Below are positions 20 through 18,461 of a DNA stretch of 41,925 nt, in pieces. Source of the stretch: an uncultured Verrucomicrobiota bacterium (GTDB taxonomy: Bacteria; Verrucomicrobiota; Verrucomicrobiia; Limisphaerales; CAIYYI01). A model generated the notes under the pieces. It searched no databases, was not told where the DNA came from, and saw only the letters and a program-made list of their open reading frames with translations. Every line of letters begins with the position of its first letter. The first letter of the stretch is position 1. The stretch spans positions 1 through 41,925 of the forward strand of contig CAIYYI010000256.1 in the NCBI GenBank assembly GCA_903930345.1, read 5' to 3'. The translations under genes were made by a program, and so were the position numbers.

Positions 20-3000
20 ATGAGTACAACCATGAAGTGGCTTGAGCGAACTGGCCGTTGGTCAGCCAAGCTCACTCTTGGTACTAACGTAGGCTGGATG
101 CTTACTCAGCCGATGGCAGAGATGATGCACTTGCTCGCCTCACACCCGAACCCCAGGGCTGTACGGCGCGCCTACTGGCAGCGCAAGGCAATGATGGAAC
201 TAGACCCGGAAGCATACGCAATGCTTCAGTACGCGTCTAGCACTACTTTGGGCACTAACACACTAACTACGCGCCTGTTGGATAACCATGCGGCTACGGG
301 TCAGTTCACTGAGCACTTCCGGGAAAGCTACGAAGGCCAGGTAATCAAAGACATTCTAAAATTGGAGACCCTGGGCAGGTTGGATCGTGCCAAAGGTACG
401 TTTATCCGAGAGCTGGGAACCTTGATGGAGCTGGAAAGCAACATGACGGGGCTAGCCCGAACTGCCAAGGCGATCAAGGGTCAAAACGATGCCATTGAAA
501 ACATTGCGCACGTGTTGGAACGCAAGAGCCCGGCTGAGCAGCTGAAATATATGTTCTCTGATCGGGGAATCAAAGACAGCGAGGCTTTGACTAACGAAAT
601 ACGGGACGCCCTTGCTGCTGGCGACCTACTGATCAAGAACGTCGACGACCAGATGGGTAACTGGACTGCAGTTACGCCTGGGCTTGAAGCTGGCGTGGCA
701 TCGATAGCTTTCTTCTACCCGTACACGCGTTTTTCTTTGAAGTGGGTGCTCCACACGTTCCCCAAGAACCACCCTGCCTGGTACGCCGCATGGACCATGA
801 TGGGCGGCATGCACGCACAACTGGTCGAAGAGATTATGGGTGGCGATCCTCCGTTCCTCAGTGGCTGGGCGCAAGTACCGCTTTATAACAAGGACGGCCA
901 AGTCGTATCAATGATGCCCGTGGCCCGGCTTATGGGTACGTCAAATGCTGCTTGGGAAACTGTCGGTAGCGTTGAAAACCCGCTTGATTTGTTAGGCCCT
1001 ACGGTTCCGGGCGTAAAGATTTTTGTTGATTATCTTGCAGACTTCGATCAATACGGCAATAAGTTGGAAGGCCGCGATTCGGAGAAGGGCCCGGACTGGC
1101 TTGATCGCGCTTGGAACGCAATTGATCAGACGCTTTCACTGTCGCCTTTGTATCGGGAGCCCAAGCGCCAAGGCTTAATACCTGGGATAGATGCTCGGCA
1201 GCTGCAGCCAGGCGACGACCCAAATGGACACCGAGCATTTATGCGTCGGATGCTAGGTCCGATGGCCGATTACGCGTACGCAATCTGGTCGGGGCAGGCT
1301 CCGGGCGTACCGACAGACGTAGTTCAGTCAGGAGTGCGTTACGAAAAATTGTATGACGCGTTCCTTGAAGCGGGTATCAAGACTGGTGCTGAAATACCAG
1401 CGGCTCTAAAGAAAGCGCGGGACAAAGAAGAGCAGTGGTACATGGAGCTTAACTCTGAAAGTGGCGAGAACGCACTTTGGGTTCCTAAGATCCGAGACCT
1501 GGAAGAGCGGTACAACGATTACCACGTCGAAGTTATGACGGCAAAGGTTCAATGGGCTCGTGAGCAGGCAAGGTACCGCAACTGGAAAAGTCGTGACAAG
1601 GATTGGGCTGCTTACCAGCGGCTTAAGGCAAGCAAAGACAACGCGCAGACGGCCCGAGAAACGCTTGCTTACGTTCTAGATCAAGAGGCAAAGATGTCTG
1701 GGCTGAAGGGCGCGCCGCTCGACCAAGAGCTAGTACGCAAAGGCAAAGAAGCCGCTAAGAACGTCATTACAGAGCAGCCCAACATGATCCAAAACTCTAG
1801 GGGCCAATGGGTTATCGAAGGCTCCCCACAGTCAGGCGACTACGACCCTGATAAGGGTTACTGGCAAGCGACTGTGCCGCAAGGCGCAAAAACCATAAAG
1901 CACTTGGGCGTACCAGTCGAGAACCTGGGCTGGGAACAACCAGACGGTACGGTGCGCAAGCCGGACGGCACGATCGTTGGGCGGGGTGACGTTAGTGAAC
2001 GTAAGCTGCTTGATCCCTGGGAAGGTCAGCCCCCAGGTTTTAGGGAAGACGCTACAAAAGACTTCGTAGATAGAAACCGGCTGACCGAGCAGGTAAAGAA
2101 GTCACGTCGCATCTTGGCTGAAGCACCGCTCAAGGAGCGGCCCGAAGACAGGGCGCTGCGGCTCAGGCTAAACAGGCGCGGCGAAGCACTACACCGCAGG
2201 GGTGTTCTGAATAACAATCCGAAAATACAGACTGAAGGTCTGGCTATGATCGACAAGGCCAAGAAGATGGAATCTGAGGTCAGCGCAGCAAGGACGCGTC
2301 GCGCTGAAGCTAGGGCCGATCTGATCCAAGCACGCGCCGCCCTGAAAGAAAAGGGCGAAACGTTTATTTACGACGGCACTACTGGGCAGTACACTACCGG
2401 CGATCGAGCGCCTGGCTCCAGCTCTAACGTGCCACCTGATCTGGCAAACGTAGTGCCGGGCTCAATGAGAGCCAACGTCAAGCGCAGGTGGAAGTGGGCT
2501 AACCACGTTCTGGATCTGAAGGAACAGATGAACAGCGGGGGCGCAGGCATAAAACCCAAAGCACCCGTGCCCAAGGACTTGATCCCGATTTACAAAAAGG
2601 CAGCAGCCAAGTACGGACTCGGACCCAAGGGACCGGCCATGCTGGCAGCCATCAATGAGATTGAGACCGCGTTCGGCACAAATACGAATGTGTCTTCTGC
2701 TGGAGCGCAAGGCTGGATGCAGTTCATGCCCGGTACCTGGGATGGCTACGGCGTGGATGCTGACGGCGACGGCACGGCTGATCCGTACAGCAAGGTCGAT
2801 GCCATCCACTCAGCAGCTAACTACCTGTCTGCCAACGACGCGCCGAACGACTGGGGTAACGCCCTGTACAGATACAACAATGCTCAGTGGTACGTCGATC
2901 AAGTGTCGGCCAGGGCTGAAGAGTTCCAGGGCAGCGCCGGGCCTAAGCAACAGAAGATTCTGGAGGCCAAGTTCTGGGAGGCCGTACGGACCAACAAGGC

Positions 3001-3802
3001 TCTAGGTAACTACGACGTACCCGAGAAAAGCATGATGGTAGAGGTCAAGCCCGGCGACGTACCAGGCAAGGGTGACTGGATGGGTACTCAGATAATCCTA
3101 GAACGGGCAGCCAAGCCGTGGGAGGGCATCATTAGTTCCCGTAAACGGTCAACGCAAAACACAGCAAGCGGCGGCATCAGCGACCACTGGTCCGGAGCTA
3201 CTGCGAACTACGCCGTAGACATCGGTGCCGACAGCAGCACTGGCGACGCCATCGCCAAGGGCATGCACAAGCGCCTGGGTCTAGTCGAGCCCTATGAAAC
3301 CAGCTGGAAGACTTACACCAGCAAGAAGTATCCGGGCTTCACCTTCCAGATCGGATGGCAAACAGACCCCGATCACTACAATCACGTGCACGTAGGCGCA
3401 CAGAACACCGACGCCACACAGGTTTCTGTCGGCCCCATGTCAATGATGGCCCGAGCCCGGGCCGCAAGAAACCCAGCTAACGAAGCTACAAGCGCAGCGA
3501 TAGCAGGCGGCGCAATCTCATCGGGGGGAGCAGGTGCCACGTCAGCCGCTGGCGGAGCCGCTGGTACAGGAACAACTGGTACGCCTACCTTGGATACCTT
3601 GGAAGGCTTCCGCGAAGCCTACGGCCTTGGAAGCAATGGCTTCATAGGGGGTGGCGGTGAAATCAAGGTAGATGAACTGCCGTTCCTAGCTGAGATTGCT
3701 GCCCAGACAAAGGGGTTGGGTGCTACCGGGCCTGTGAGAAAGAAACTCAAGACACCAACTGCTCGTGCGTCGCAGCTGGGCCTATATGATGTAGGCCCGT
3801 AA
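20..3802 (+). CDS. Giant virion-associated peptidoglycan hydrolase (transglycosylase plus M15-like peptidase)
   Basis: This 1260-residue protein probably travels in the virion and opens the cell wall during DNA entry. The first ~850 residues are mostly helical and charged, without a recognised family. Residues ~852-965 form a lytic transglycosylase (SLT-type) domain: the stretch around Glu882 (INEIETAFG), then GAQGWMQFMPGTW, then YRYNNAQWYV, are its hallmarks. Residues ~1050-1125 resemble a zinc D,D-/L,D-peptidase of the M15 type (SDHWSG...VDIGAD...NHVHVG). A Gly/Ala-rich linker and a short tail follow. The ATG at 20 has a GAAGG 11 bases upstream, but the frame is open to the left edge (no stop in 2-19), so the true start could lie outside the window. 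It precedes the lysis genes, yet its size argues for an internal virion protein like T7 gp16 in role rather than an endolysin. Confidence 0.85.
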   Translation: MSTTMKWLERTGRWSAKLTLGTNVGWMLTQPMAEMMHLLASHPNPRAVRRAYWQRKAMMELDPEAYAMLQYASSTTLGTNTLTTRLLDNHAATGQFTEHFRESYEGQVIKDILKLETLGRLDRAKGTFIRELGTLMELESNMTGLARTAKAIKGQNDAIENIAHVLERKSPAEQLKYMFSDRGIKDSEALTNEIRDALAAGDLLIKNVDDQMGNWTAVTPGLEAGVASIAFFYPYTRFSLKWVLHTFPKNHPAWYAAWTMMGGMHAQLVEEIMGGDPPFLSGWAQVPLYNKDGQVVSMMPVARLMGTSNAAWETVGSVENPLDLLGPTVPGVKIFVDYLADFDQYGNKLEGRDSEKGPDWLDRAWNAIDQTLSLSPLYREPKRQGLIPGIDARQLQPGDDPNGHRAFMRRMLGPMADYAYAIWSGQAPGVPTDVVQSGVRYEKLYDAFLEAGIKTGAEIPAALKKARDKEEQWYMELNSESGENALWVPKIRDLEERYNDYHVEVMTAKVQWAREQARYRNWKSRDKDWAAYQRLKASKDNAQTARETLAYVLDQEAKMSGLKGAPLDQELVRKGKEAAKNVITEQPNMIQNSRGQWVIEGSPQSGDYDPDKGYWQATVPQGAKTIKHLGVPVENLGWEQPDGTVRKPDGTIVGRGDVSERKLLDPWEGQPPGFREDATKDFVDRNRLTEQVKKSRRILAEAPLKERPEDRALRLRLNRRGEALHRRGVLNNNPKIQTEGLAMIDKAKKMESEVSAARTRRAEARADLIQARAALKEKGETFIYDGTTGQYTTGDRAPGSSSNVPPDLANVVPGSMRANVKRRWKWANHVLDLKEQMNSGGAGIKPKAPVPKDLIPIYKKAAAKYGLGPKGPAMLAAINEIETAFGTNTNVSSAGAQGWMQFMPGTWDGYGVDADGDGTADPYSKVDAIHSAANYLSANDAPNDWGNALYRYNNAQWYVDQVSARAEEFQGSAGPKQQKILEAKFWEAVRTNKALGNYDVPEKSMMVEVKPGDVPGKGDWMGTQIILERAAKPWEGIISSRKRSTQNTASGGISDHWSGATANYAVDIGADSSTGDAIAKGMHKRLGLVEPYETSWKTYTSKKYPGFTFQIGWQTDPDHYNHVHVGAQNTDATQVSVGPMSMMARARAARNPANEATSAAIAGGAISSGGAGATSAAGGAAGTGTTGTPTLDTLEGFREAYGLGSNGFIGGGGEIKVDELPFLAEIAAQTKGLGATGPVRKKLKTPTARASQLGLYDVGP

Positions 3803-3861
3803 GCCATACACAAGGCCACGCCCAAAAATGATTTCTTCTGTCTCCAAAACCATGCCCAAGA

Positions 3862-4020
3862 ATGAAATTCAAACCAACTCAAGACAGCGTCCTGTTCGCG
3901 TTCGGGCTACTGGGGCTGATACACGAAACAGTCTTCATCAGTACAGCCGAACCGGCGCTAGTGGCAGTGTTTTGCGCAATGTGCGGCCTACCAATCTTTC
4001 GCGCCAAGGACAGGCAGTGA
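3862..4020 (+). CDS. Small membrane protein, holin candidate (52 aa)
   Basis: A 52-residue protein with two hydrophobic stretches (about residues 9-20 and 30-45) separated by a short polar turn, and a basic C-terminus (IFRAKDRQ). It overlaps the next small gene by a GTGA junction and lies directly ahead of the endolysin, so a holin or holin-partner role is likely by position and shape. A longer reading frame also crosses this DNA (ATG at 3828), but its translation is Ser/Arg/Thr-rich and looks like a shadow. The Shine-Dalgarno sequence is weak (CCCAAGA). There is no family match I can name. Confidence 0.6.
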   Translation: MKFKPTQDSVLFAFGLLGLIHETVFISTAEPALVAVFCAMCGLPIFRAKDRQ

Positions 4021-4106
4021 GGATTGCGTCCCGTAACCCGTGGACTATGGGGTACCTTACGGTAGTTGCTGTTGTCATTGCCTTTCTTGTCGGCCTCGGA
4101 ATCTAA
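4017..4106 (+). CDS. Tiny single-span membrane protein (29 aa, GTG start)
   Basis: A 29-residue peptide consisting of a short basic head (VRIASRNPW) and one strong transmembrane segment (LTVVAVVIAFLVGLGI) that reaches the stop codon. The GTG overlaps the stop of the upstream gene, and AAGGACAGG provides a ribosome site just before it. It lies 12 bases ahead of the endolysin, so it probably belongs to the lysis operon as a holin, antiholin or pinholin-like partner. The frame can be extended upstream to ATG 3828, but the added part does not look like protein. Confidence 0.55.
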   Translation: MRIASRNPWTMGYLTVVAVVIAFLVGLGI

Positions 4107-4118
4107 AAGGAAAACAAC

Positions 4119-4931
4119 TTGAGTAAAGCAGTCAAAGCGGAAATCGTCGAGCTTCGCAACAAAGAAAAGAAACTTCTTGAAGCGATAGCCAAGGCCATCA
4201 GCAAGCGTGAACGCATGGACGACGATCGCCTAGACGACAAAGCTGAAGCTGACCGTCTGCGTGACCAGCGTGAGAAGGGTGAGTTCTACGACCAGCAAAG
4301 GTTGGCCTTGCTCAACAGCGAGCTGACGATTGCTAACGCCGAGTTGCTTCAGGTACGAAAGAACATTCAGCGCCGCCGTTCGCGGCTACAGCGAGTGCGA
4401 CGAAACCTAAAAAAGCAACGAGTACGGTTTCGCAACAGCTTGCGTCCAAAGATCATTGATCTGGACCTTGGCTTCCGCCCCATGGCAACCCAGGGTTCAG
4501 TTGACAAGGTGATCGGGCACTACACTGCCGGGCCGCAGGATGAAAACACTGAAGACGCAATTCGTCTGTGTCGCATTTACCATCAGGCGCATCTGAATCA
4601 AGGTTGGTCGGGCGAGGCATACATGCTTTGCTTCACCGTGGAAGGAGACATCCTTCTCCTGCGGCCAGCCAAGTACGTAGGCGCACACACGCTTGGCTAC
4701 AACACCGGCAGCTACGGCATCATGATGCACGGCACTACCGGCGACAATCCAACCGCCGCCCAAAAGAAATCGCTTCAGTGGTGGGCCAAGAACGGCAGCA
4801 ACAAAATGATGGGGTCCGGGCGGACCACGGTTATCCCCGGCAAGCTCAAGTGGTATGGGCACAACGACTTCAACCCGACCTCTTGCCCGGGCAACTTTAA
4901 ACCGACGTATCGAGCGAAAGGTAAAGCATGA
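4119..4931 (+). CDS. Endolysin: N-acetylmuramoyl-L-alanine amidase with N-terminal coiled coil
   Basis: The enzyme should cut the amide bond between muramic acid and the stem peptide at lysis. Residues 1-110 are a highly charged coiled coil ending in an Arg/Lys-rich stretch. Residues ~125-265 are an Amidase_2/PGRP-like domain: zinc ligands are most likely His134 (VIGHYTAG), His248 (YGHND) and Cys256 (TSCPG). The start is a TTG preceded by AAAGGA. There is no signal peptide, so export would depend on the neighbouring holin candidates. The stop overlaps the ATG of the following membrane protein gene (ATGA). A coiled-coil N-terminus instead of a C-terminal wall-binding domain is a less common layout. 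Confidence 0.9.
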   Translation: MSKAVKAEIVELRNKEKKLLEAIAKAISKRERMDDDRLDDKAEADRLRDQREKGEFYDQQRLALLNSELTIANAELLQVRKNIQRRRSRLQRVRRNLKKQRVRFRNSLRPKIIDLDLGFRPMATQGSVDKVIGHYTAGPQDENTEDAIRLCRIYHQAHLNQGWSGEAYMLCFTVEGDILLLRPAKYVGAHTLGYNTGSYGIMMHGTTGDNPTAAQKKSLQWWAKNGSNKMMGSGRTTVIPGKLKWYGHNDFNPTSCPGNFKPTYRAKGKA

Positions 4932-6048: not shown

Positions 6049-6458
6049 AATCGGGCCGCAAAAAACTCACCGCAGCAGAAAAGCAAGCGCGGGAGCGGTT
6101 CGTTGAGGCGGTACTGGCTACGGCTTACCTGTATGAGACAGGCTGTTGGTTCTCACACGTCGTCCGTCATAAATGCGACGGCCCGATCGACCCGTGCCAC
6201 GTGATTGACAAGCAGGGACTGAAGATAGCGGGACGTTTTCTTGAGCAGCCAGAGGCCATGGTCTTTGACCCACGCAACGGAGTGCCGGGCTGCCGCTACA
6301 TCCACAGTCGGTTCGACAGCAGCATGATTCGTGTGTACCAAGGTGACTTACCCGATTCAATCTTCATGTTTGTTGACCAGTGGGAGGACGCTATCGGCAC
6401 CCCGGGCATCCTCCAAGAAAAGCTAGACCGCAAGTGCCCGAAGGGAACAAGACCATGA
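6045..6458 (+). CDS. HNH-like zinc-finger protein (137 aa)
   Basis: The pattern Cys44...Cys51-His52 (DPCHVIDKQG), Asn78 (DPRNGVPGC), Cys83 and His87 (CRYIHSRFDS) resembles an HNH/treble-clef nuclease core: beta-hairpin with H, then an N-containing turn, then C-x3-H. A first Cys pair is not clean (Cys34, Cys44), so metal binding may be altered. It could nick DNA during replication or packaging, or act as a DNA-binding protein only. The GTG start overlaps the previous stop, and its own stop overlaps the next ATG. Confidence 0.6.
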   Translation: MKSGRKKLTAAEKQARERFVEAVLATAYLYETGCWFSHVVRHKCDGPIDPCHVIDKQGLKIAGRFLEQPEAMVFDPRNGVPGCRYIHSRFDSSMIRVYQGDLPDSIFMFVDQWEDAIGTPGILQEKLDRKCPKGTRP

Positions 6459-6688
6459 GCAAGCCAAAGCACAGCGAGGCTAGGTTTTCTATGCGTATGT
6501 CAGAAGACTTGAAGCAGATGCTGGCAGCCGTTGCCATTTTTGAAGACCGCAATCCGAGCGACATTGTACGCATCGCCTTGAAGTACTACATGAATGACAA
6601 GGGGTACTTCGACCCAGACTTCATACAGAAGTGGACCGCAAAAGAAAATGAAGCGGCCCGTCAACACAGCAGAAAGGAAACACCATGA
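6455..6688 (+). CDS. Ribbon-helix-helix (CopG/Arc-like) protein (77 aa)
   Basis: Residues ~8-45 fit a ribbon-helix-helix domain: a basic beta strand (ARFSMRMSEDL), helix A (KQMLAAVAIFED), a turn, and helix B (NPSDIVRIALKYYM). Such dimers bind operator DNA. The acidic and basic C-terminal tail is of unknown role. The ATG at 6455 overlaps the previous stop (ATGA), and the stop overlaps the next ATG, so it is translationally coupled on both sides. Confidence 0.7.
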   Translation: MSKPKHSEARFSMRMSEDLKQMLAAVAIFEDRNPSDIVRIALKYYMNDKGYFDPDFIQKWTAKENEAARQHSRKETP

Positions 6689-9305: not shown

Positions 9306-9748
9306 CTGCTGTGGGCGGCTCGATTTTTATTCCGGGCCAACCTGTACCAGTACCCCGCATAAAAGTAGGCCGATGGGGTGCCTACTACGGTAAGCAATAC
9401 ACAGAATGGCTACCTGCCGCTCGTGAGTACTTAAGAAACAGCTGGGACGGCGGTTTGTTTGAAGCTGGCACGCCTGTCCAGGTTCGGCTGGATTTTAGAA
9501 TACAAAGGGCAAAAAGCCATTGGGGCACCGGGCGCAACGAAATGAAGGTCAAAGCCCGTTACCTAAAAGAAAGACCCTATCCGGGGGGTGATGTCGACAA
9601 TCTGTGTAAAGGCGTCTTAGATGCGCTTACAGGGACAGCATGGGCCGATGATGACCAGGTCGTGCTGATGATCGTTACGAAGCAATGGACGGATGAGCGA
9701 GACGAGATTCCAGGTTGTTCAGTTGAGATTGAAGCCTTTGAACGCTAA
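9302..9748 (+). CDS. rusA: RusA-type Holliday-junction resolvase
   Basis: The signature GGDVDNLCKGVLDAL...WADDDQVV matches RusA: acidic residues Asp97, Asp99, Asp107 and the Asp116-118 cluster should bind the magnesium that cuts four-way junctions. The N-terminal strand FIPGQPVPVPRIKV is also typical. The start is taken as TTG at 9302, overlapping the HNH stop (TTGA); the frame is open further upstream to 9257 but that part overlaps the HNH gene. It closes the early operon and fits the resection, SSB and resolution set of genes before it. Confidence 0.85.
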   Translation: MTAVGGSIFIPGQPVPVPRIKVGRWGAYYGKQYTEWLPAAREYLRNSWDGGLFEAGTPVQVRLDFRIQRAKSHWGTGRNEMKVKARYLKERPYPGGDVDNLCKGVLDALTGTAWADDDQVVLMIVTKQWTDERDEIPGCSVEIEAFER

Positions 9749-9768
9749 TAGCGTGCCGATGCACAGCT

Positions 9769-9780
9769 TTTGTCCATTCT
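9769..9780 (+). repeat. TTTGTCCANTCT site (exact)
   Basis: Exact match to the 12-base site of the leftward block, lying in the convergent gap between the resolvase gene and the end of the leftward operon. It is the leftmost copy. Confidence 0.75.
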
Positions 9781-9800
9781 TGTTGAAGGGGTCTTGAACA

Positions 9801-9837
9801 AAAAAAGGGCTGACTCCGTTAGGAGCCAGCCCTTTGT
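9801..9837. terminator. Bidirectional terminator between convergent operons
   Basis: GGGCTGACTCC (9807-9817) pairs with GGAGCCAGCCC (9822-9832) with one mismatch around a GTTA loop. A-rich sequence lies to the left and TTTGTGTT to the right, so it can end transcription from both sides. Confidence 0.8.
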
Positions 9838-9838
9838 G

Positions 9839-9955
9839 TTACTCGTACAGCTTGTAGCGCATTTGCCACAGGAAGTAGAGCAGGTTGACTATGAGTAGTG
9901 GTCCAAAAACGATCAGTAACGGCTCGATGAGCTCGTTCCATAGTTGGCTGATCAT
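9839..9955 (-). CDS. Single-span membrane protein (38 aa)
   Basis: A 38-residue peptide with a long hydrophobic core (EPLLIVFGPLLIVNLLYFL) flanked by a short polar head (MISQLWNELI) and a basic tail (WQMRYKLYE). The ATG overlaps the stop of the zinc-ribbon gene upstream (ATGA), and the terminator follows its stop at once, so it is the last gene of the leftward operon. It could anchor a complex or alter the host envelope; the function is unknown. Confidence 0.6.
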   Translation of the reverse strand: MISQLWNELIEPLLIVFGPLLIVNLLYFLWQMRYKLYE

Positions 9956-10254
9956 GGGGCATTACTCGTGCTGCCGTATGTGGCAGTGGCGAGGTTACGC
10001 CAGGTGCTACGTACTTCGTGGATGCGACGGCCTAGCTCATCTAGCAACAGTGTTGTTTGAGCGGAGCCGCTGGCGTTGTTTAGGACTTGTTCAGCAGCGT
10101 TTAGGGTGCTGATGGCGCTAGCGACTAGGTTGGTCGTCGATGACCAGATCATGCGGCATCCATAGCAGGAGTCCGATAGAACGGTGTGATTGTCTGTTGT
10201 GGTCGCACGTTCTACTGGACCCCCGCAATGGATACACGTTTTAAGGGTGCTCAT
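9952..10254 (-). CDS. Zinc-ribbon/treble-clef-like protein (100 aa)
   Basis: Cys7-x2-Cys10 and Cys30-x2-Cys33 (KTCIHCGGP ... DSCYGCRMI) make a single four-cysteine zinc site in the first 35 residues, followed by helices (about 40-95) with no known family. It is coupled to the 56-residue gene upstream and the membrane protein downstream, and lies in the same transcription unit as the ubiquitin-like cassette. A link to ligation (as an adaptor or E3-like factor) is guesswork: only one metal site is present, so it is not a RING. Confidence 0.65.
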   Translation of the reverse strand: MSTLKTCIHCGGPVERATTTDNHTVLSDSCYGCRMIWSSTTNLVASAISTLNAAEQVLNNASGSAQTTLLLDELGRRIHEVRSTWRNLATATYGSTSNAP

Positions 10255-10411
10255 GGATACTTACCTCGATTGCGTCGATCGTGTCGATTCCGAGCTCCAT
10301 TTTGAGGCGCGCGGAAGCGCGTTCAGTGATGGCGTGGTCGCCGGTAATAGACGTTGTGACGACCGCGTCGGGGAATACGAAGGTAACTGTGTAAAGCGTT
10401 GTTTCACCCAC
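10241..10411 (-). CDS. Small alpha/beta protein (56 aa, GTG start)
   Basis: A 56-residue protein predicted as strand (TLYTVTFVF), strand (VVTTSITG), helix (AITERASARLKMEL), strand (DAIEVSIHEH). It begins in a GTG that overlaps the end of the coiled-coil gene (GTGGGTGA) and its stop lies inside the start of the zinc-ribbon gene, filling the space exactly. The order of strands and helix is compatible with half of a beta-grasp or a ferredoxin-like fold, but no glycine tail is present. Confidence 0.6.
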   Translation of the reverse strand: MGETTLYTVTFVFPDAVVTTSITGDHAITERASARLKMELGIDTIDAIEVSIHEHP

Positions 10412-10997
10412 CGATTGTAATGGCGGGTACTGTGACGTCCTCAGGTGCCGGTAGGATGGCGGTAGCCTGGGGGATACGGGCGAGGAATGACTGTGCTTCG
10501 GCGCTGATGAGTGCGCCGACTGCCAGTTCTTCTTCGATCTGCAGCTGCATCTTGTTCAGGTCGAGCGTGGCTGCGCCGTGTTCGGCGAACAGTTCTGCGG
10601 ACGCGTGATCGACGTGCTGTTTGATGTTGGCGACTTCCAGGCTGCGCGATACGTTGATCGTGCAGATTTGGTTGGCGTATTGCCAGCTTGGTGAACGGCC
10701 AACGCTATGACGGTGTGAGCGGGTGGCTGGTGTAAGTCCATTCTCACGGATGTCTTTCCACAGGGCTTCGGCTTTGTCGTTGAGTTTTTCTGCCTCTTTG
10801 GCGAGGTCTTTGAGCTTGCCTTCGAACGTGGCGACTTCTTTGGCCTTGGATGCGCGGAGGTCAGTTTCGATCTTGGTGCGAATGGCTTGACGGCGCTGTA
10901 CAAGCTCTGCGTCAAGCAGTTCGAACCGGGCTCCGATGATGCGACGGAGTTCTTTACGCTCCGTAGCGGTCATGGGTTTGGTTTTGGTGTCGGGCAT
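10404..10997 (-). CDS. Coiled-coil protein ending in Gly-Gly (197 aa)
   Basis: Residues ~10-85 are a charged coiled coil (TERKELRRIIGARFELLD ... KLKDLAKEAEKLNDKAEALW). The second half is a mixed region (NVSRSLEVANIKQHVDHA...) ending in VPAITIGG, so the last two residues are glycines, as in mature ubiquitin-like modifiers. The start (ATG 10997) has AGGAAGG 6 bases upstream. It follows the E1-like gene by 14 bases. It may be a substrate, a scaffold or an extra modifier of the cassette; none can be shown here. Confidence 0.7.
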   Translation of the reverse strand: MPDTKTKPMTATERKELRRIIGARFELLDAELVQRRQAIRTKIETDLRASKAKEVATFEGKLKDLAKEAEKLNDKAEALWKDIRENGLTPATRSHRHSVGRSPSWQYANQICTINVSRSLEVANIKQHVDHASAELFAEHGAATLDLNKMQLQIEEELAVGALISAEAQSFLARIPQATAILPAPEDVTVPAITIGG

Positions 10998-11011
10998 GGT
11001 GTGCCTTCCTG

Positions 11012-11770
11012 TTAGATGACCCAGTCGCCGGATGTAACAGGCGGTTGTGCCAGGTTGATGGTGGTTACCGATGATGTGACCCCATCGGTGAGGGCGTGCC
11101 GCACCATGTTGGTCAGGATTGCGCCTGCCATGAGCCCGACGTCTATGACGCCACGCTCGGTACATGATGCTGGTACAGAATCTTCGTCTGAATGCAGGGT
11201 CTGCTCGTAGTGCTTGCAGTCAGCCAACTCATTTGGTCGGACTGCGTACACCACGAGCAGTTGCCCTGCGATCCGGGCGTCAATGTACAACTTAACTCTA
11301 GAGTTGTACTTGATGCGCCCATTTGCCCATATGTCCATTCTGGCGCGCATGGAATCGACGCCGCTGACGACAATGCCGCGTGGTCGCCATGAACTGGGAG
11401 AATTTTTACCGATCTGGCCCTCGATGGCCTTCACTTCGATGTTGGCGTACTCGCGCAGGGTGTCGCGCATGGAGTTCACCTTGCTTTGTGGGGCCTGGTT
11501 CTTGTATGCCGGTAGGGGCAGGGACGAGAAGCTGTGTAGTTGGTTGGGGATGTTGTGAAGCTCGACGGTGTCGTCGTCCACGAGTGTGATGTTCGGGACG
11601 CCGAGCTTGCCGATGCCGAAGGCGGCGAAGGAACCGATGCCGCCCAGGCCGATGATGTTGACCGAGTCGCCCTTGCGTTCTTCCGGGTTGTAGAAGCCGA
11701 GCTGTCGCTTGTACAGGTCGTAGGAGCTGTGGTCCTCGGTGGTGGGGTCTGCTGCGATGGTGTCGCTCAT
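11012..11770 (-). CDS. ThiF/E1-like ubiquitin-like-protein-activating enzyme
   Basis: An E1-like adenylyltransferase that should activate the C-terminal glycine of a ubiquitin-like protein with ATP. Visible landmarks: RQ at 22-23 (YKRQLGFY), the nucleotide loop GLGGIG at 41-46, Asp65-67 (VDDDTVE), Asn73 with Asn76-Gln77 (NIPNQL), Lys97, Asp139 (SGVDSMRARMDIW) and Asp164 (DARIAG). Cys185 and Cys203 (PASCTERG) are candidates for the thioester cysteine; Cys203 lies in the position used by many ThiF-like proteins before the crossover helix. At 252 residues it is a bare Rossmann-type E1 without extra domains. Its ATG overlaps the stop of the JAMM gene. Confidence 0.88.
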   Translation of the reverse strand: MSDTIAADPTTEDHSSYDLYKRQLGFYNPEERKGDSVNIIGLGGIGSFAAFGIGKLGVPNITLVDDDTVELHNIPNQLHSFSSLPLPAYKNQAPQSKVNSMRDTLREYANIEVKAIEGQIGKNSPSSWRPRGIVVSGVDSMRARMDIWANGRIKYNSRVKLYIDARIAGQLLVVYAVRPNELADCKHYEQTLHSDEDSVPASCTERGVIDVGLMAGAILTNMVRHALTDGVTSSVTTINLAQPPVTSGDWVI

Positions 11771-12588
11771 TTGGACGGTTCTTCCATGAGTTCTTTGACC
11801 GCGTCTTTTGTGAGCTTGGTGGTGTCGCTGAGCGGCGACGTATCGATGCTCTGCGAGCCGAAGTCGTCTTCGTAGTCAGCGTATGAGCCCCATCCCATCT
11901 GGTCCATGGCGCTCCATTCGGACATGACGATCGAGTCGTACTGGTCCTTTTCGTAGCTGGAGAGAGCGTTGTATCCGTCCTTGTGTACTTTCTCGGTGAG
12001 GAAGTCTTGGCGGCTTTCTGAGACGGGCTTTGCGTCGTACTTGCCGGTGAGGGCTTTGCTGGTTGATTTGTTTTCGGTGACGAGTTTGTTGTATGTGTTG
12101 ATGATGTGCTCTGGAGGCGCGGTCTGTTCGTAGTAGAGGTCTAGTTCGTACTCGACCTGGTTGGTGAACTGACCGAACTCGCCCGTCGGGTAAAAGTCGA
12201 CGCGTGTTTTGTACTCGCCTTGTTTGTTTTGCACGAGGCTGACGAGGTATGGGGTCATGCCGTTGTTGGTACCGGCGATCATGCTTTCGTCGGTTGACGA
12301 CCAGAACGCAGCCATGTTGACGTGGCTGTGCCAACAGAACTTGAGGTCGTTGACGCGGTTGTCAGTGGTCGCTTTGTCGATGGCGTACGCGAGGCCGTCG
12401 TCCATGAAGTCGACGGAGCCGCCAGTGACTGTTTGTTCGACGAGAAAGATTTCGTCTACGTAGAAGTCGCCAGAGTCGGTCATGGTTACATAGCCGAAGC
12501 CGCCGATTTCGTAGTTGCAGTGGCGTATGTAGTGGGCAATGTCCATTCTGGCTTGGTGCGAGAGGGTGAGTTTGTTGTTAGCTGGCAT
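11767..12588 (-). CDS. JAMM/MPN (JAB) metalloprotease
   Basis: Residues ~5-125 form a JAB domain with the whole zinc motif: Glu27 (NYEIGGFGYV) and His87-x-His89-x7-Ser97-x2-Asp100 (WHSHVNMAAFWSSTD). JAMM enzymes process ubiquitin-like precursors or remove the modifier from targets by cutting the isopeptide bond. The C-terminal half (about 130-273) is acidic and helical with an unknown fold. The start (ATG 12588) follows AAAGGACACC; the stop overlaps the E1-like gene's ATG, implying linked production of the two enzymes. Confidence 0.9.
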   Translation of the reverse strand: MPANNKLTLSHQARMDIAHYIRHCNYEIGGFGYVTMTDSGDFYVDEIFLVEQTVTGGSVDFMDDGLAYAIDKATTDNRVNDLKFCWHSHVNMAAFWSSTDESMIAGTNNGMTPYLVSLVQNKQGEYKTRVDFYPTGEFGQFTNQVEYELDLYYEQTAPPEHIINTYNKLVTENKSTSKALTGKYDAKPVSESRQDFLTEKVHKDGYNALSSYEKDQYDSIVMSEWSAMDQMGWGSYADYEDDFGSQSIDTSPLSDTTKLTKDAVKELMEEPSK

Positions 12589-12620
12589 GGTGTCCTTTGG
12601 GGTGGTGGGGGTTGTGGGGA

Positions 12621-14006
12621 TCAGTCGATGTCGTCGTTGTCGTCGTCGTTCATGTAATCGTGGAGCTGGTCGCCGAAGAAGTCGTACCAGTCGCTTGTGT
12701 AGCAGTCGTCGGGATTTACGAGTGAGAGCTGGTCGATAAGTACTTCGACGGCGGTGGCGAACTGAAGGTCGCGCATGAGCGAGTAAACGAGCTCCCGGGC
12801 ACCCCCGAGGCAAAAGTCATTGTTTGAGATGTGTGGGTGCTGGTAGCTACCGATGGAGTATTCGCTGGTGTTGAGTACGCGAACACTTGGCGTGGTGAAG
12901 TTGAGCTGAAGGGTGAAGATCCCAGCCTCGGTGGTGTATTCACAGCCATCGTGCATTGTCACGGTCATGTTGATGAGTTTGGTCCGCACGATTAGGTGAG
13001 TGTCATCGTTACCGCCGAGCAGGGTGTCTACTTGCGGTAGGTTAGAGATGTCGCGTACGATTGCGGCCAGGTAATCGGGGTCAGTCATTTCTTTGGGGAT
13101 CACGGCGTTACGTATTGCTTGGATCTGGGGCGCGAGAGAGCGTATTTGCCGCTCGTAGGAGTCGGCGTTGTTGCGTGCACTTTGCATGCGTTCTTCTGCG
13201 CTGGAGAGTTCCATACGTAGTGAAGCGAGTTGTCCAGTGTGTAGGTTTTCGACGGCTGCTAGGAGCCGGGCTACATGCTGATCTTGCGCGGCCTCGTTCC
13301 AGGTGGCGGAGAACTCAGGGTCAAGGCTGTGTGCGATGGCGCGCTGGATGATGTTGGCGAATTGGGCGCGTTGGCTTGGGTGCGCAAGTTGGGTCGGGAG
13401 CCAGGGGAAGTAGATGACGTCGGTATCGATTTGTCCAATCCAACGTACGCGTCCTGTTGCGGCTTGGTCGGCTTCATATACGTCGTTGATGAACATTTGT
13501 GGGTAGTCAGAGGGGCTGTAGGCGGCCTCTTCGTACGTGTGGTTGAGCTGCAGGTTGTAGGCGTCGTCGGGGTCTATGTCGAAGCGGTTTACGTAATGGC
13601 GGTTGTAGAGCCGGATGCGGCTTCGGTGTTGGTTATGTTCATTGACGTTGCCGAAGACGATTGTTGCGTCAAGGTTGTGCTCATGATTGTGGCTGCGGAC
13701 ATCTGTGGGGTTGATCGAGTTGTGGGATGAGTTGAGGCCATCCAGGTATGTGGTGGTGTTCCAGGCGTCGAGTAGACCGATGCGCATACCGAGTTCGCTT
13801 GCGATGATGTTGATGATTTGACGGGCGGTGCGCATTGACGTCGGCTGTACGTCGGAGAGCGGATTGACTTCGTACACGCCGTTGTTGTCGTCGGAAATTG
13901 GGATCCAGTTGGCGTCTGGGGCTGCTGGTAGTGCTGCGAGGGTTGTGTAAAGTTCGTCGCTGATGGGGGTTAGCGGGGTGTGGGCGGCAATGGTTTCGGT
14001 GTCCAT
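12621..14006 (-). CDS. Large protein with C-terminal E2 (UBC-like) conjugating domain
   Basis: The last ~115 residues of this 461-residue protein carry the core pattern of ubiquitin-conjugating enzymes: strands with TLQLNFTTPSVRVLN, then YQHPHISNNDFCLGG, helices, and VNPDD. In E2s the HPNI...ICL stretch presents the catalytic cysteine, which here would be Cys399, and PNPDD lies after the cross-over helix. A coiled coil (about 250-300) separates this from a ~230-residue N-terminal part of unknown fold, rich in His, Asn and Asp. The C-terminus is strongly acidic. ATG 14006 follows TAAGGA; a hairpin and a TTTGTCCA site lie between it and the ubiquitin-like gene. PRTRC system protein B also ends in an E2-like domain and is the nearest named comparison I can offer. 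Confidence 0.72.
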   Translation of the reverse strand: MDTETIAAHTPLTPISDELYTTLAALPAAPDANWIPISDDNNGVYEVNPLSDVQPTSMRTARQIINIIASELGMRIGLLDAWNTTTYLDGLNSSHNSINPTDVRSHNHEHNLDATIVFGNVNEHNQHRSRIRLYNRHYVNRFDIDPDDAYNLQLNHTYEEAAYSPSDYPQMFINDVYEADQAATGRVRWIGQIDTDVIYFPWLPTQLAHPSQRAQFANIIQRAIAHSLDPEFSATWNEAAQDQHVARLLAAVENLHTGQLASLRMELSSAEERMQSARNNADSYERQIRSLAPQIQAIRNAVIPKEMTDPDYLAAIVRDISNLPQVDTLLGGNDDTHLIVRTKLINMTVTMHDGCEYTTEAGIFTLQLNFTTPSVRVLNTSEYSIGSYQHPHISNNDFCLGGARELVYSLMRDLQFATAVEVLIDQLSLVNPDDCYTSDWYDFFGDQLHDYMNDDDNDDID

Positions 14007-14041
14007 GTTGGTCGTGATCCTTAGGGTTGGGGGCGTGGGGG

Positions 14042-14053
14042 TTTGTCCATTGT
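14042..14053 (+). repeat. TTTGTCCANTCT site (one mismatch)
   Basis: TTTGTCCATTGT lies in the gap upstream of the E2-like gene, 36 bases before its start and after the hairpin. Confidence 0.6.
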
Positions 14054-14066
14054 TGTGAACGAGCAA

Positions 14067-14101
14067 CTCCCCCCACGAGTTGGAAAGTGCCGTGGGGGGA
14101 G
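14067..14101. terminator. Intergenic hairpin after the ubiquitin-like gene
   Basis: CTCCCCCCACG (14067-14077) pairs perfectly with CGTGGGGGGAG (14091-14101) over a 13-base loop. There is no U-tract in the leftward direction, only TTGCTCGTT. It may end or attenuate the ubiquitin-like transcript. Confidence 0.65.
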
Positions 14102-14117
14102 TAGCTAGGCCGAGTGG

Positions 14118-14363
14118 TTAGCCCAGCGAGGCGTTCTTTGGCGGTGCAGCGAGACGGGCACCGTCTGAAACGTCGGAGCCGCGTACGTCGCTGGCGTCAA
14201 CGCGCGAGCCGTTGACGAGGAGGTCGACACCGAGGCGTGAGGCGTCAATGCCGTTGCGATCGAGCGCAGCGGCGACGGTCTCGTTGGCACCTACGGTGAC
14301 CTTGTGCTGGAAACCAGCACCTGTGATGGTGATTTCGTTTCCGGTGATCTGGAGGTCGGCCAT
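14118..14363 (-). CDS. Ubiquitin-like (MoaD/ThiS-type beta-grasp) protein
   Basis: An 81-residue protein with the order of a beta-grasp fold: strand (EITITGAG), strand (QHKVTVG), helix (ETVAAALDRNGI), strand (GVDLLVNGSRVD), short strand (DGARLAAP) and an extended tail ending in ASLG. The VDLLVNGSRVD...DGARL section is close to the MoaD/ThiS pattern. The chain ends on a single glycine (Gly81) with nothing after it, so the modifier could be used by an E1 without being trimmed. ATG 14363 follows CGAAAGGAC. It lies ahead of the E2-like, JAMM and E1-like genes, on the same strand. Confidence 0.8.
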   Translation of the reverse strand: MADLQITGNEITITGAGFQHKVTVGANETVAAALDRNGIDASRLGVDLLVNGSRVDASDVRGSDVSDGARLAAPPKNASLG

Positions 14364-14532: not shown

Positions 14533-14910
14533 CTAGCCACCACCCGCCGCAGACGGCGGGTCTTTTTCTGCTTCTACGTTGCACCGACCTATGTAGTAGG
14601 CCGCAAGAAGTGGTGGAACGGGTTTGAAACTGATTGCGTCGTCTGTAAGGGTAGGTTCGCCGAGGATTACGACCGGGCCTTGTAGCTCGTCGTATGTGTA
14701 CAGCCGTCGCGAGGCGTAATGGTTGGAGGGAAGGTTCCACAGTTTGGCGTTCGTGTTGACGATGGCGATGGCCGTGGGTTCTTCTGGGATGGTGAGCAGT
14801 TCAATGTCACCCTCGACAATGGTTTGGAGATTGTCCAGTGTGGGAGTGAGGGCTACGTATCTAGGTTGCTCCTTGGGTGGGAAAAGCAGTGCTTGTGTTT
14901 CTGGTGGCAT
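14533..14910 (-). CDS. DUF3846-like protein (125 aa)
   Basis: The order PTLDNLQTIVEGDIELL, NTNAKLWNLPSNHYASRRL, then DELQGPVVILGEP resembles DUF3846, a small domain common in phages and mobile elements of actinobacteria and firmicutes, whose biochemical role I do not know. The C-terminus (KDPPSAAGGG) overlaps a + strand terminator-like hairpin, which explains its odd glycine run. The ATG overlaps the stop of the wHTH gene upstream. Confidence 0.7.
   Translation of the reverse strand: MPPETQALLFPPKEQPRYVALTPTLDNLQTIVEGDIELLTIPEEPTAIAIVNTNAKLWNLPSNHYASRRLYTYDELQGPVVILGEPTLTDDAISFKPVPPLLAAYYIGRCNVEAEKDPPSAAGGG
14542..14567 (+). terminator. Rightward-facing terminator-like hairpin
   Basis: ACCCGCCG and CGGCGGGT pair around CAGA, followed by CTTTTTC on the + strand. 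It lies inside the 3' end of a leftward gene, so its direction is opposite to the gene it sits in, and suggests a short + strand transcript from the 14446-14501 element. Confidence 0.6.
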
Positions 14911-15368
14911 CAGTGACCGGGGATGTGGATGCGCACGTTGCGTTCAGAACGTTCGGCGGTGCGTGTGCGCTCGATCTGGGCGGTTTTACGGGCGGCTTCG
15001 GTCACGACGTACTCGTGAGCGTCGGCAGTTCGTTCGACTCGGCCTGTGTTTTCGAGTCCAGCGAGGGTAGAGTAGATGGAGTTGCGGTTGATTTTTCCGT
15101 CCAGGGCGGTCGCGATTGCCTGGGGTGCCATGGGCCGGTTGTGGGTGAGCAGGTAGTTGAAGACGAGGTCACGGTTGGGAGAAGAGCGCTTGGTCATGGT
15201 GTATTTGCGCTTTTTGCGTGGTGTGTCAGAGGGAGTGGATCGCTTGGCGGCTTTCCGGGCCTCATCTATCTCGGCGAGAAGAGCGTCCTGTTCGGCCTGA
15301 AGGTTGATGATGGTTGTGTTGATGGTGGTGATGCGTTCTACGATGGCGGTGCGTACTGCGTCGATCAT
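14910..15368 (-). CDS. Coiled-coil plus winged-helix DNA-binding protein (152 aa)
   Basis: Residues 1-42 are a coiled coil (AIVERITTINTTIINLQAEQ...), then a basic hinge (SDTPRKKRKYTMTKRSS), then a wHTH at ~65-125 (RDLVFNYLLTHNRPMAPQAI, NSIYSTLAGLENTGRVERT, EYVVTE). The helix order is that of a MarR/PadR-like wing. It probably dimerises through the coiled coil and binds DNA, so it is a candidate reader of the repeated sites in this block. ATG 15368 follows AAGGAGACACA. Confidence 0.7.
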   Translation of the reverse strand: MIDAVRTAIVERITTINTTIINLQAEQDALLAEIDEARKAAKRSTPSDTPRKKRKYTMTKRSSPNRDLVFNYLLTHNRPMAPQAIATALDGKINRNSIYSTLAGLENTGRVERTADAHEYVVTEAARKTAQIERTRTAERSERNVRIHIPGH

Positions 15369-17726: not shown

Positions 17727-18461
17727 TTAGATATCGGCCCGTGTAACGTTGAGCCACTGGGATTCATCAGGACCGTTGACCCAGATGACGCTGAGGCCCC
17801 TGTCGAGTGCCTGGAGGACGCAGTTGCGCGTTCCTTTCGACGTCTTCAGGTTTTGGTTGAAGGCGTAGACCAGATCGCCTGGCTTCAGGTGATCCAACAT
17901 GCGCCCGTTGCGCTCGTGTCCCGCGCCGCGTCCGAGACGGTCCCAGTCCGCTACTTCGACGACGTGTTTGACGTTCTGCTGATCGGCGATCGTTCTACCG
18001 ATTTTGTCCAGTCCGCGCGCACATCCGAAGACGTGTGGTAAATCGCGGTGCCGCTCGATGAGTCGTCGTGGCGTCTGCCAGTCTGACCAGTTTCGGTCGC
18101 CTGTGAAGCACACTTTGCCCGGGCTTAGATCTGCGAGGCAAGCGGTGGTGGGTTTGTAGGGCGTTGGTTCGGATGGCTTACGTCCGTGTGAGGCGCGGTA
18201 CCAATCAACGGCGGCGACCAGGATGTCTCCGTGGCAAGGACGAGGGGCGCAATAACACGCTAAGGCGTGTCCTTCTAGTTCGTCCAATCTGTCGAGTAGG
18301 TCGGGCCTACTCCACAAGTACGCGCGGTAACGCTGTATGACTTCTGCGCGTGTGCCGTGTGTCTCGATGACGAATGGGTTCCCCCAGTCTGAGCCGCGCC
18401 CGATGAATATGGCGTCGTCTATGTGATCGTGTACGTGTACAACGTGTGTGTGGGTTTTCAT
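17727..18461 (-). CDS. DUF4326-SLOG (YspA-like) fusion protein
   Basis: Residues ~15-85 match DUF4326: FIGRGSDWGNPFVI, the helix EVIQRYRAYLWSRPDLL, and HALACYCAPRPCHGDIL with Cys69, Cys71 and Cys76. Residues ~114-230 match the SLOG Rossmann-like domain of YspA/DUF2493: VCFTGDRNWSD, GCARGLDKIGRTIAD, ADWDRLGRGAGHERNGRML, then LVYAFNQN and GTRNCVLQALDRGLSVIWV. SLOG domains bind or process nucleotide-derived ligands, and some act in conflict systems. The GxGR/GGxGT region is modified (NQNLKTSKGT), so catalysis is uncertain. ATG 18461 follows CAACGAAAGGC. Two near-exact repeated sites lie inside (18003, 18279). Confidence 0.82.
   Translation of the reverse strand: MKTHTHVVHVHDHIDDAIFIGRGSDWGNPFVIETHGTRAEVIQRYRAYLWSRPDLLDRLDELEGHALACYCAPRPCHGDILVAAVDWYRASHGRKPSEPTPYKPTTACLADLSPGKVCFTGDRNWSDWQTPRRLIERHRDLPHVFGCARGLDKIGRTIADQQNVKHVVEVADWDRLGRGAGHERNGRMLDHLKPGDLVYAFNQNLKTSKGTRNCVLQALDRGLSVIWVNGPDESQWLNVTRADI

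Follow-up and report, generated by a model that had tools for sequence, protein, structure and literature searches.

A probable ubiquitin-like conjugation and removal cassette that recurs in tailed phages

Background

Whether a phage can carry its own pathway for the activation, conjugation and removal of a ubiquitin-like protein (Ubl) is the question raised by four consecutive genes in the stretch of DNA analysed here, hereafter referred to as the window (bases 1-41,925 of contig C256, from an uncultured Verrucomicrobiota bacterium with a draft genome of 709 contigs and 7.2 Mb, 89.9% complete and 5.9% contaminated). A preliminary description of this DNA had assigned the genes to a beta-grasp Ubl, a protein with an E2-like domain, a JAMM protease and an E1/ThiF-like activating enzyme, and had expected such a full set to be unusual in a phage. 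The present analysis argues with good confidence that a tailed phage carries a module, complete in itself, for attaching and removing a ubiquitin-like tag, of which the gene set and its order, the homology of its members, the conservation of their active sites, their co-divergence and their recurrence in phages were directly observed. The expectation of rarity needs revision, since the set recurs in phages.

Results and discussion

Recurrence of the cassette in viral records

A scan of viral records with E1 identified L004, a record of 182.7 kb in which the gene set and its order are those of the window, and further records were collected with two-sequence profiles of E1 and JAMM, the E2 and Ubl sequences not being used in finding records. 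Eighteen IMG/VR records were examined (L004, L007, L008, L013-L017 and L019-L028). Their fetched stretches contain E1 and JAMM in every case (18/18 each), E2 in 17 (not L020) and Ubl in 16 (not L020 and L023). All four genes are found in 16 of the 18 records and follow the order Ubl-E2-JAMM-E1 in 14 of those, L016 and L024 being rearranged. A scan of the viral records with A8 returned 16 records, each of them already in the collection. Kept out of the counts were L018 (the L004 record), L029-L044 (repeats), the IMG/VR records L009-L012, which have a crAss-like gene order with E1 and JAMM-like genes and no Ubl or E2 profile match, and L048, which has JAMM- and Ubl-like genes near a dimethyl sulphoxide reductase-like gene and looks cellular. 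Searches of phages by nucleotide similarity (blastn of the cassette) gave little or nothing, and tblastn with the window JAMM and with the L021 JAMM gave one record each.

The viral label of the records rests chiefly on IMG/VR. The terminase model phrog_2 matches 11 of the 18 records and also 11 of 14 cellular control genomes, and is therefore weak proof of viral origin; the terminase model PF03354 matches one of 14 records, under its cut-off. A terminase from a different family was seen in L008, and L014 matched a portal model. Among 387 genomes of the phylum of the window, the JAMM profile matched in the window alone, and 84,980 genomes of bacteria and archaea, when scanned, yielded four contigs, all from metagenome-assembled genomes (MAGs) and L048 among them, a count that is a lower bound because the scan rests on a single motif. 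An E1 of the family had no match at 1e-5 among 72,556 plasmids. The cassette family thus looks virus-borne. Two MAG contigs hold the complete set, namely L045 (E2, JAMM, E1, Ubl) and L047, an 8-kb contig of a Lokiarchaeota MAG with all four genes in order (1719-4887). The latter MAG also has UQ_con E2 matches, and L047 may come from a virus of Asgard archaea or be a phage contig that strayed into the MAG.

Distance matrices were compared for all six protein pairs, with 13-18 loci each, and gave correlations of r 0.46 to 0.65, with at most 1 in 5000 permutations as high. When the neighbouring genes were clustered by blastp, which can miss distant relatives, non-cassette families occurring in more than three records were confined to the crAss-like group (one also in L021); the other shared neighbours are a terminase present in L015, L023 and the window, and some genes that pairs such as L004/L027 have in common. 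Since the records outside the crAss-like group share no neighbour family beyond three records, the cassette behaves as a unit, and its genes seem to move and to diverge jointly in phages sharing little else nearby. Chance assembly of motifs was also considered and was rejected, in view of the further viral records that hold the set and of catalytic residues that stay unchanged even in distant members of the families.

Components of the cassette

The four open reading frames (ORFs) lie on one strand, as had been proposed, and are transcribed in the order Ubl, E2-like, JAMM, E1, with gaps of 111, 32 and -4 bases (Table 1). The four-base ATGA overlap reported earlier between JAMM and E1 was recovered and may couple their translation, and purine-rich aaaggac stretches precede the Ubl and JAMM starts. 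When the cassette was compared with Pfam, PHROGs and PADLOC, E1 provided the sole meaningful match in the latter two.

The window E1 matches Pfam ThiF (2.6e-18), and the E1 profile matches, among solved structures, Uba1 (5.8e-19) and also Uba5, MoeB, ThiF and BubCD. The alignment comprised 14 of the 19 E1s (L007, L014, L019, L020 and L023 left out), and its columns invariant in all 14 rows include Arg22, Gly 41/43/46, Asp67, Asn73, Gln77, Asp139 and Cys203-Thr204, a pair that recalls the C-T motif of eukaryotic E1s. The protein is thus identified as a putative adenylating enzyme with a conserved predicted thioester Cys203.

The JAMM protein matches Prok-JAB at 4e-4 (20.7 bits, below the 25-bit cut-off), and its family keeps Glu27, His87, His89, Ser97 and Asp100 invariant in 20 of 20 rows. 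Its profile matches Rpn11/PSMD14 among solved structures (2.7e-8), including an archaeal-type N11-like chain, and the sequence qualifies it as a predicted JAMM protease with the Glu, HxH, Ser and Asp site. The motifs named in the preliminary description were all confirmed, namely the nucleotide-binding GLGGIG and the RQ pair (located at Arg22-Gln23) in E1 and the Glu, HxH, Ser and Asp site (located at Glu27, H87-x-H89, Ser97 and Asp100) in JAMM. Two JAMM genes stand in tandem behind E1 in L024 (6824-8657).

Pfam returned no family over the cut-off for the window Ubl (best Fer2_4, 0.042). The profile of the Ubl family matched the solved structures of SAMP2 (5.2e-10) and PF1061 (1.7e-9), together with ThiS/MoaD-type chains. 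An ortholog in L007 was identified by single-sequence phmmer (2.5e-7); blastp found no match between the window and L004 Ubls, and the kinship of these two rests on the 17-row profile, an alignment that leaves out the L026 Ubl, found later. A Gly lies within a few residues of the unit end in 16 of the 17 rows, L015 having a Gly followed by a long tail. In 10 of 17 rows Gly-Gly is followed by at least one further residue, as expected of protease-trimmed precursors, and four rows end on Gly, including the window protein (...PKNASLG). The AlphaFold2 (AF2) model, with a mean confidence (pLDDT) of 64, has the beta-beta-alpha...beta order of beta-grasp proteins, and its fold search returned Ubl, SUMO and MoaD-type chains mixed with ferredoxins, none below 0.001. 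On the fold and profile tests together, the proposal of a beta-grasp fold for the 81-aa protein holds, and the protein is read as a predicted beta-grasp modifier with a C-terminal Gly. In L016, a tandem fusion of two Ubl units joined at VKGG (6200-6613) resembles a short polyubiquitin, and an additional Ubl-like ORF (3864-4232) adjoins E1.

The 461-aa protein comprises a variable N-terminal part, a helical coiled-coil-like stretch (238-321) and a C-terminal UBC-like domain, and its relatives range from 215 to 812 aa. Pfam gave no family over the cut-off and only weak coiled-coil-type matches (best 0.01), and the full-length profile matched coiled-coil stretches (best 4.6e-4). Neither tblastn of the window or L004 protein against phages nor a single-sequence scan of viral contigs with E2 returned more than little or nothing. 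In its AF2 model, residues 1-204 are poor, the long helix has block means of 70-94, and block-mean pLDDT is 74-91 over 321-430, except at 381-390, where it drops to 60, and falls from 67 to 49 over 431-460; the C-terminal domain consists of a strand meander, a Cys loop and helices. The top 19 Foldseek matches of this model in the PDB are all entries containing an E2, with E2-sized chains of 133-213 residues (E 0.012 to 0.46, probability 0.20-0.99), while the CdnG-E2 complex of CBASS (cyclic-oligonucleotide-based anti-phage signalling system) ranks 23 and 28. A fold search against viral models gave two matches past 0.001, one an uncharacterised phage protein and one nameless. Comparison of the E2 domain by hhalign with 20 Asgard E2s gave 8.1e-6 with a probability of 84% (full-length alignment 2.8e-5, 74%), against 0.38-0.68 for three unrelated profiles used as controls, and the alignment is in register, HPN facing HPH, Cys facing Cys399 and the downstream N-P-D-D matching as well. 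Within the family, Cys399 is invariant (18/18) and His390 nearly so, the usual motif being H-P-H-[I/V]...C-x-G and that of the window H390-P-H392...C399. Of the Cys residues singled out in the preliminary description, Cys399 of E2 and Cys203 of E1 proved invariant, while Cys185 of E1 falls outside the invariant and nearly invariant columns. Fold and profile comparison together identify the 461-aa protein as a predicted UBC-fold E2 with a catalytic Cys, so that the UBC fold assigned to it earlier stands. Modules for activation, conjugation and removal are, as claimed, all there with their active sites intact.

Several points weigh against this interpretation. The E2-like model has no PDB fold match below 0.001, its His390 sits in the low-confidence dip at 381-390, and a PDB search by sequence with the E2-domain profile gave nothing meaningful, its one match, at 1.1, being due to chance. 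Pfam UQ_con matches one of the 18 E2 members, at 0.022, and the Asgard E2s used for comparison were those with an HPN...C pattern in the ORF (20 of 26 loci). The model of the Ubl is of low confidence, with ferredoxins among its fold matches, and the protein terminates in one Gly rather than Gly-Gly. The Arg of the canonical N-L-x-R-Q motif is replaced by Asn in the window E1 and, among the listed relatives, by Asn, Cys or Ser; the window has H-N-I-P-N-Q, compared with S-N-L-Q-R-Q in L001, a MoeB-like protein of the same draft genome. Co-divergence could arise partly from shared phage descent. The support as a whole consists of sequence, profile and model comparison.

Table 1. Positions of the cassette genes and of their main features in the window
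Feature	Position	Strand	Basis
Ubl, beta-grasp modifier (predicted), 81 aa	14118..14363	-	profile of relatives, AF2 model, fold search
E2-like conjugating protein (predicted), 461 aa	12621..14006	-	conservation, AF2 model, fold search, profile comparison
UBC-like (E2) domain, residues 326-453	12648..13031	-	model, fold matches, hhalign, invariant Cys
His390 codon; codon of predicted catalytic Cys399	12837-12839; 12810-12812	-	within UBC-like domain
JAMM/JAB metalloprotease (predicted), 273 aa	11767..12588	-	invariant active site, Rpn11/PSMD14 profile match
E1/ThiF-like activating enzyme (predicted), 252 aa	11012..11770	-	Pfam ThiF, Uba1 profile match
ATGA overlap, JAMM stop / E1 start	11767..11770	-	sequence

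Phage setting and cultured phages

The phage setting assumed for the cassette is borne out by window ORFs with matches to head and packaging proteins (terminase, portal, major head protein), to a tail fibre and an endolysin, and to RusA and an exonuclease. The nearest named phages by head protein are those of Arthrobacter (31%) and Microbacterium (29%), and the head protein is 71% and 63% identical to those of the IMG/VR records L050 (24 kb) and L051 (13 kb), respectively; neither of these close relatives has a JAMM match, although both records are short. No integrase was found among the 40 window ORFs scanned against PHROGs and no terminal repeat was seen in the window. Directly upstream of the Ubl lie genes for a DUF3846 protein (14533-14910) and a winged-helix-like protein (14910-15368), and a DUF4326 domain fused to a sub-threshold SLOG-like (YAcAr) match is encoded at 17727-18461 in the same reverse-strand block.

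A role in virion assembly or maturation, in which a structural protein is modified and the tag later removed by JAMM, would have a precedent in lambda-like phages, where a Ubl (TAPI) is paired with a JAB/NlpC protein (cf. TAPK) in tail assembly clusters (PMC1779556). The cassette differs from that pair, as JAMM has no NlpC match in Pfam, and it lies in a reverse-strand block with the structural genes of the window on the opposite strand. No structural neighbour is shared apart from the terminase family in three records, and the neighbours of the E1 and JAMM-like genes in three other cases (L005, Flavobacterium phage Fpv1 and crAss001) encode a primase, uracil-DNA glycosylase, exonuclease or helicase. 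The non-structural position in the window, together with the location in replication modules in these three, points to early infection and not to virion assembly, which is considered quite unlikely; the suggestion of virion maturation in the preliminary description is disfavoured by gene position.

Parts of the cassette were also found in cultured phages. In crAss001 (MH675552.1, L082, 81394-85065), gp76, annotated as a 'thiamine biosynthesis protein', is an E1 relative and adjoins gp77, a JAMM protein whose family matches the cassette JAMM profile at 2.2e-16 and has HSH in 7 of 8 members. The neighbouring gp78 is a weak E2 candidate, with HSH...PCxG in 7 of 8 members and a match to the E2-domain profile at E 0.0016 (probability 16%), as against 0.11 or worse with the other profiles tried and 0.21 with the Asgard E2s. 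No Ubl was found beside gp76-78, with gp75 and gp79 only examined. Xanthomonas phage PhiXhv-12 (PV764601.1, L080, 1781-5657), cultured and with a genome of 228 kb, has E2-like (2.8e-4) and E1 (2.5e-36) genes in line. Its E2-like protein has 892 aa and HPH...SLCLGS, a possible Ubl of 140 aa ending in GG lies just upstream, without a Ubl profile match, and no JAMM was detected within the stretch examined. Both loci thus correspond to parts of the cassette only (E1 and JAMM in crAss001; E2-like and E1 in PhiXhv-12). The unannotated gut phage MT835544 has JAMM and E1, and an upstream protein with PHIDDYQC, lacking an E2 profile match, is a possible E2.

Most E1 relatives in named phages are annotated as thiamine biosynthesis, ThiF or hypothetical proteins, the first of these labels being used in both crAss001 and PhiXhv-12. 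Such annotations fit a sulfur-carrier system, in which the ThiF-like protein would charge the Ubl, as a ThiS/MoaD-like sulfur donor, for use in modifying a cofactor, nucleotide or tRNA, and so do the best NCBIfam matches of E1, which are MoeB/ThiF models, and the ThiS/MoaD-type chains matched by the Ubl profile. This explanation is nevertheless very improbable, given that the same cassette encodes a JAMM protease and a UBC-like protein whose Cys is invariant, that the window ORFs scanned include no partner of the thiamine, molybdopterin or rhodanese kind, and given the fit of the invariant Cys-Thr of E1 to the eukaryotic C-T, and the record of bajarodcaudo virus 1, which names the relative an E1 enzyme family protein. 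The thiamine-biosynthesis label of crAss001 gp76 appears doubtful.

Comparison with known systems

Rows 6a-6e of PMC1779556 (Iyer, Burroughs and Aravind 2006) list gene sets of this kind in bacteria, some of them in integrative and conjugative elements (ICEs) and plasmids, in agreement with the earlier statement that comparable sets exist in bacterial genomes and mobile elements. Like the cassette, these rows combine E1-like, JAB and E2-related domains in one cluster; they are listed for bacteria, whereas the present family was found in viral records. Row 6d has separate Ubl, JAB, E1-like and E2-like genes and an alpha-helical protein, and its E2-like proteins lack the classical E2 His that is present in the phage cassette, while 6a-6c have an E2-E1 fusion (PMC1779556, same rows). 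The NCBIfam model PRTRC_ThiF, with a cut-off of 144.75 bits, gives 20.3 bits with the window E1 and 54.6 bits with the L004 E1; the three remaining proteins of the window cassette match no PRTRC model at E up to 5, and the L004 JAMM reaches 0.16 with PRTRC_A. PRTRC is the system that we take row 6d to represent, with PRTRC_B and PRTRC_C presumably as further families of it.

Type II CBASS, with E1, E2 and JAB activities in Cap2 and Cap3, shares these activities with the cassette, which differs in its separate E1 and E2 and its dedicated Ubl. E2 and E1 are separate ORFs here, unlike in type II CBASS and rows 6a-6c, and no CD-NTase or metallo-beta-lactamase (MBL) partner was seen among the cassette and adjacent ORFs scanned; the window E1 scores 22.5 bits with 6A-MBL_cap2_3, against 320. 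No Prok-E2 Pfam family matched the 18 E2 members or the window protein at E up to 1 (best 25 of 61 families), taking Prok-E2_A to E to be the names of the prokaryotic E2 families. Searches of 96 genomes for Prok-E2_B and of 188 for Prok-E2_D gave no match, but the control genomes were silent too, which leaves these searches uninformative.

The bacterial anti-phage operon Bil (BilABCD) consists of Ubl, E2, JAB and E1, the same four components as the cassette, which differs in being phage-borne, and Bil systems are reported to tag phage proteins so as to spoil them. A phage-carried system of the Bil/Bub kind that tags and spoils the proteins of competing phages would agree with this component list, which is also that of the row 6d-type operons in the rows of PMC1779556 cited above, and with the scatter of the cassette over phages with differing neighbours. 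It would also agree with the matches of the window E1 to the PADLOC E1-E2 models (best 7.5e-10, 36 bits) and to BilD (18.3 bits, 1.9e-4), the latter being the only Bil match obtained (best 25 of 30 families). Against it, the Ubl, E2-like and JAMM proteins have no match to the Bil or E1-E2 models of PADLOC at E up to 1, their lone PADLOC match being of coiled-coil type (JetC, 0.019), and the occurrence of the JAMM family in 1 of 387 genomes of the phylum and, by the single-motif scan, on four contigs from the 84,980 genomes is unlike that of a common bacterial defence operon. An anti-phage role is therefore regarded as unlikely.

Resemblance to the archaeal SAMP2/JAMM system and the Asgard Ub-E1-E2-Rpn11 cascade lies in the nearest solved structures by profile, SAMP2 for the Ubl and Rpn11 for JAMM, and in the Asgard E2s, which align with His and Cys in register. 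The cassette differs from both in being phage-borne, in having no recognised RING or E3 and in an E2 with a coiled coil and a variable N-terminal region. Archaeal SAMPs and Rpn11 are linked to proteasomes, a link that would suit tagging for degradation, with conjugates fed to an AAA+ protease (host Clp, proteasome or phage-encoded). In L021, the second gene downstream of E1 (9449-11968, same strand) encodes a ClpA/ClpB-like AAA+ protein of the phage 'ATP-dependent protease' family. Such a gene was found in one of ten loci, however, with one nearby downstream gene scanned per locus, and the surroundings of the window cassette held no recognisable unfoldase or protease subunit; we give this explanation a low probability.

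No report of a phage Ubl-E2-JAMM-E1 cassette was seen in titles or the starts of abstracts among the matches listed from the open-licence literature, which is no proof of absence in print, and the portion of PMC8665760 drawn on here contains nothing on such a cassette.

Proposed mechanism and role

From these comparisons we infer ATP use, thioester formation, conjugation, trimming and timing as follows. E1 would adenylate the C-terminal Gly of the Ubl with ATP and then hold the Ubl on Cys203 as a thioester. The Ubl would be handed to Cys399 of the UBC-like domain, and E2 would join it to amino groups of the target, chosen probably by the variable N-terminal part and the coiled coil of E2; no E3 gene was recognised in the cassette. 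JAMM would remove the Ubl and, in many relatives, would first trim the residues past Gly-Gly. For the self-contained module proposed here, an accessory function expressed early, with host or defence proteins tagged during infection, is put forward with low confidence as the likeliest purpose.

Conclusion

The cassette is a real and recurrent phage family, gene sets of similar kind having already been described from bacteria and mobile elements. It may represent a distinct and old virus-borne Ubl conjugation system of tailed phages whose E2 domain, judged by its motif and its predicted fold, is closer to the E2s of eukaryotes and Asgard archaea than to that of CBASS, which ranks lower among the fold matches; we judge this proposal somewhat short of probable. 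Under that proposal its holders, in fuller or thinner form, would be small actinophage-like viruses, phages with contigs of 175-183 kb, the 228-kb Xanthomonas phage and the abundant gut crAss-like phages (crAss001 gp76-78). If this is true, a 'ubiquitylome' of viral origin would be present in infected bacteria and would rewire proteins of the host or of its defences. The 'thiamine biosynthesis' genes of crAss-like gut phages would also be explained, and the family offers compact E1-E2-Ubl-JAMM sets for biochemistry. The cultured phages crAss001 and PhiXhv-12, which have parts of the system, make the proposal directly testable. Bacterial ubiquitin-like conjugation is best known as anti-phage defence (type II CBASS, Bil), and a complete, recurrent version in phages would place the pathway on both sides of the conflict between phages and bacteria.

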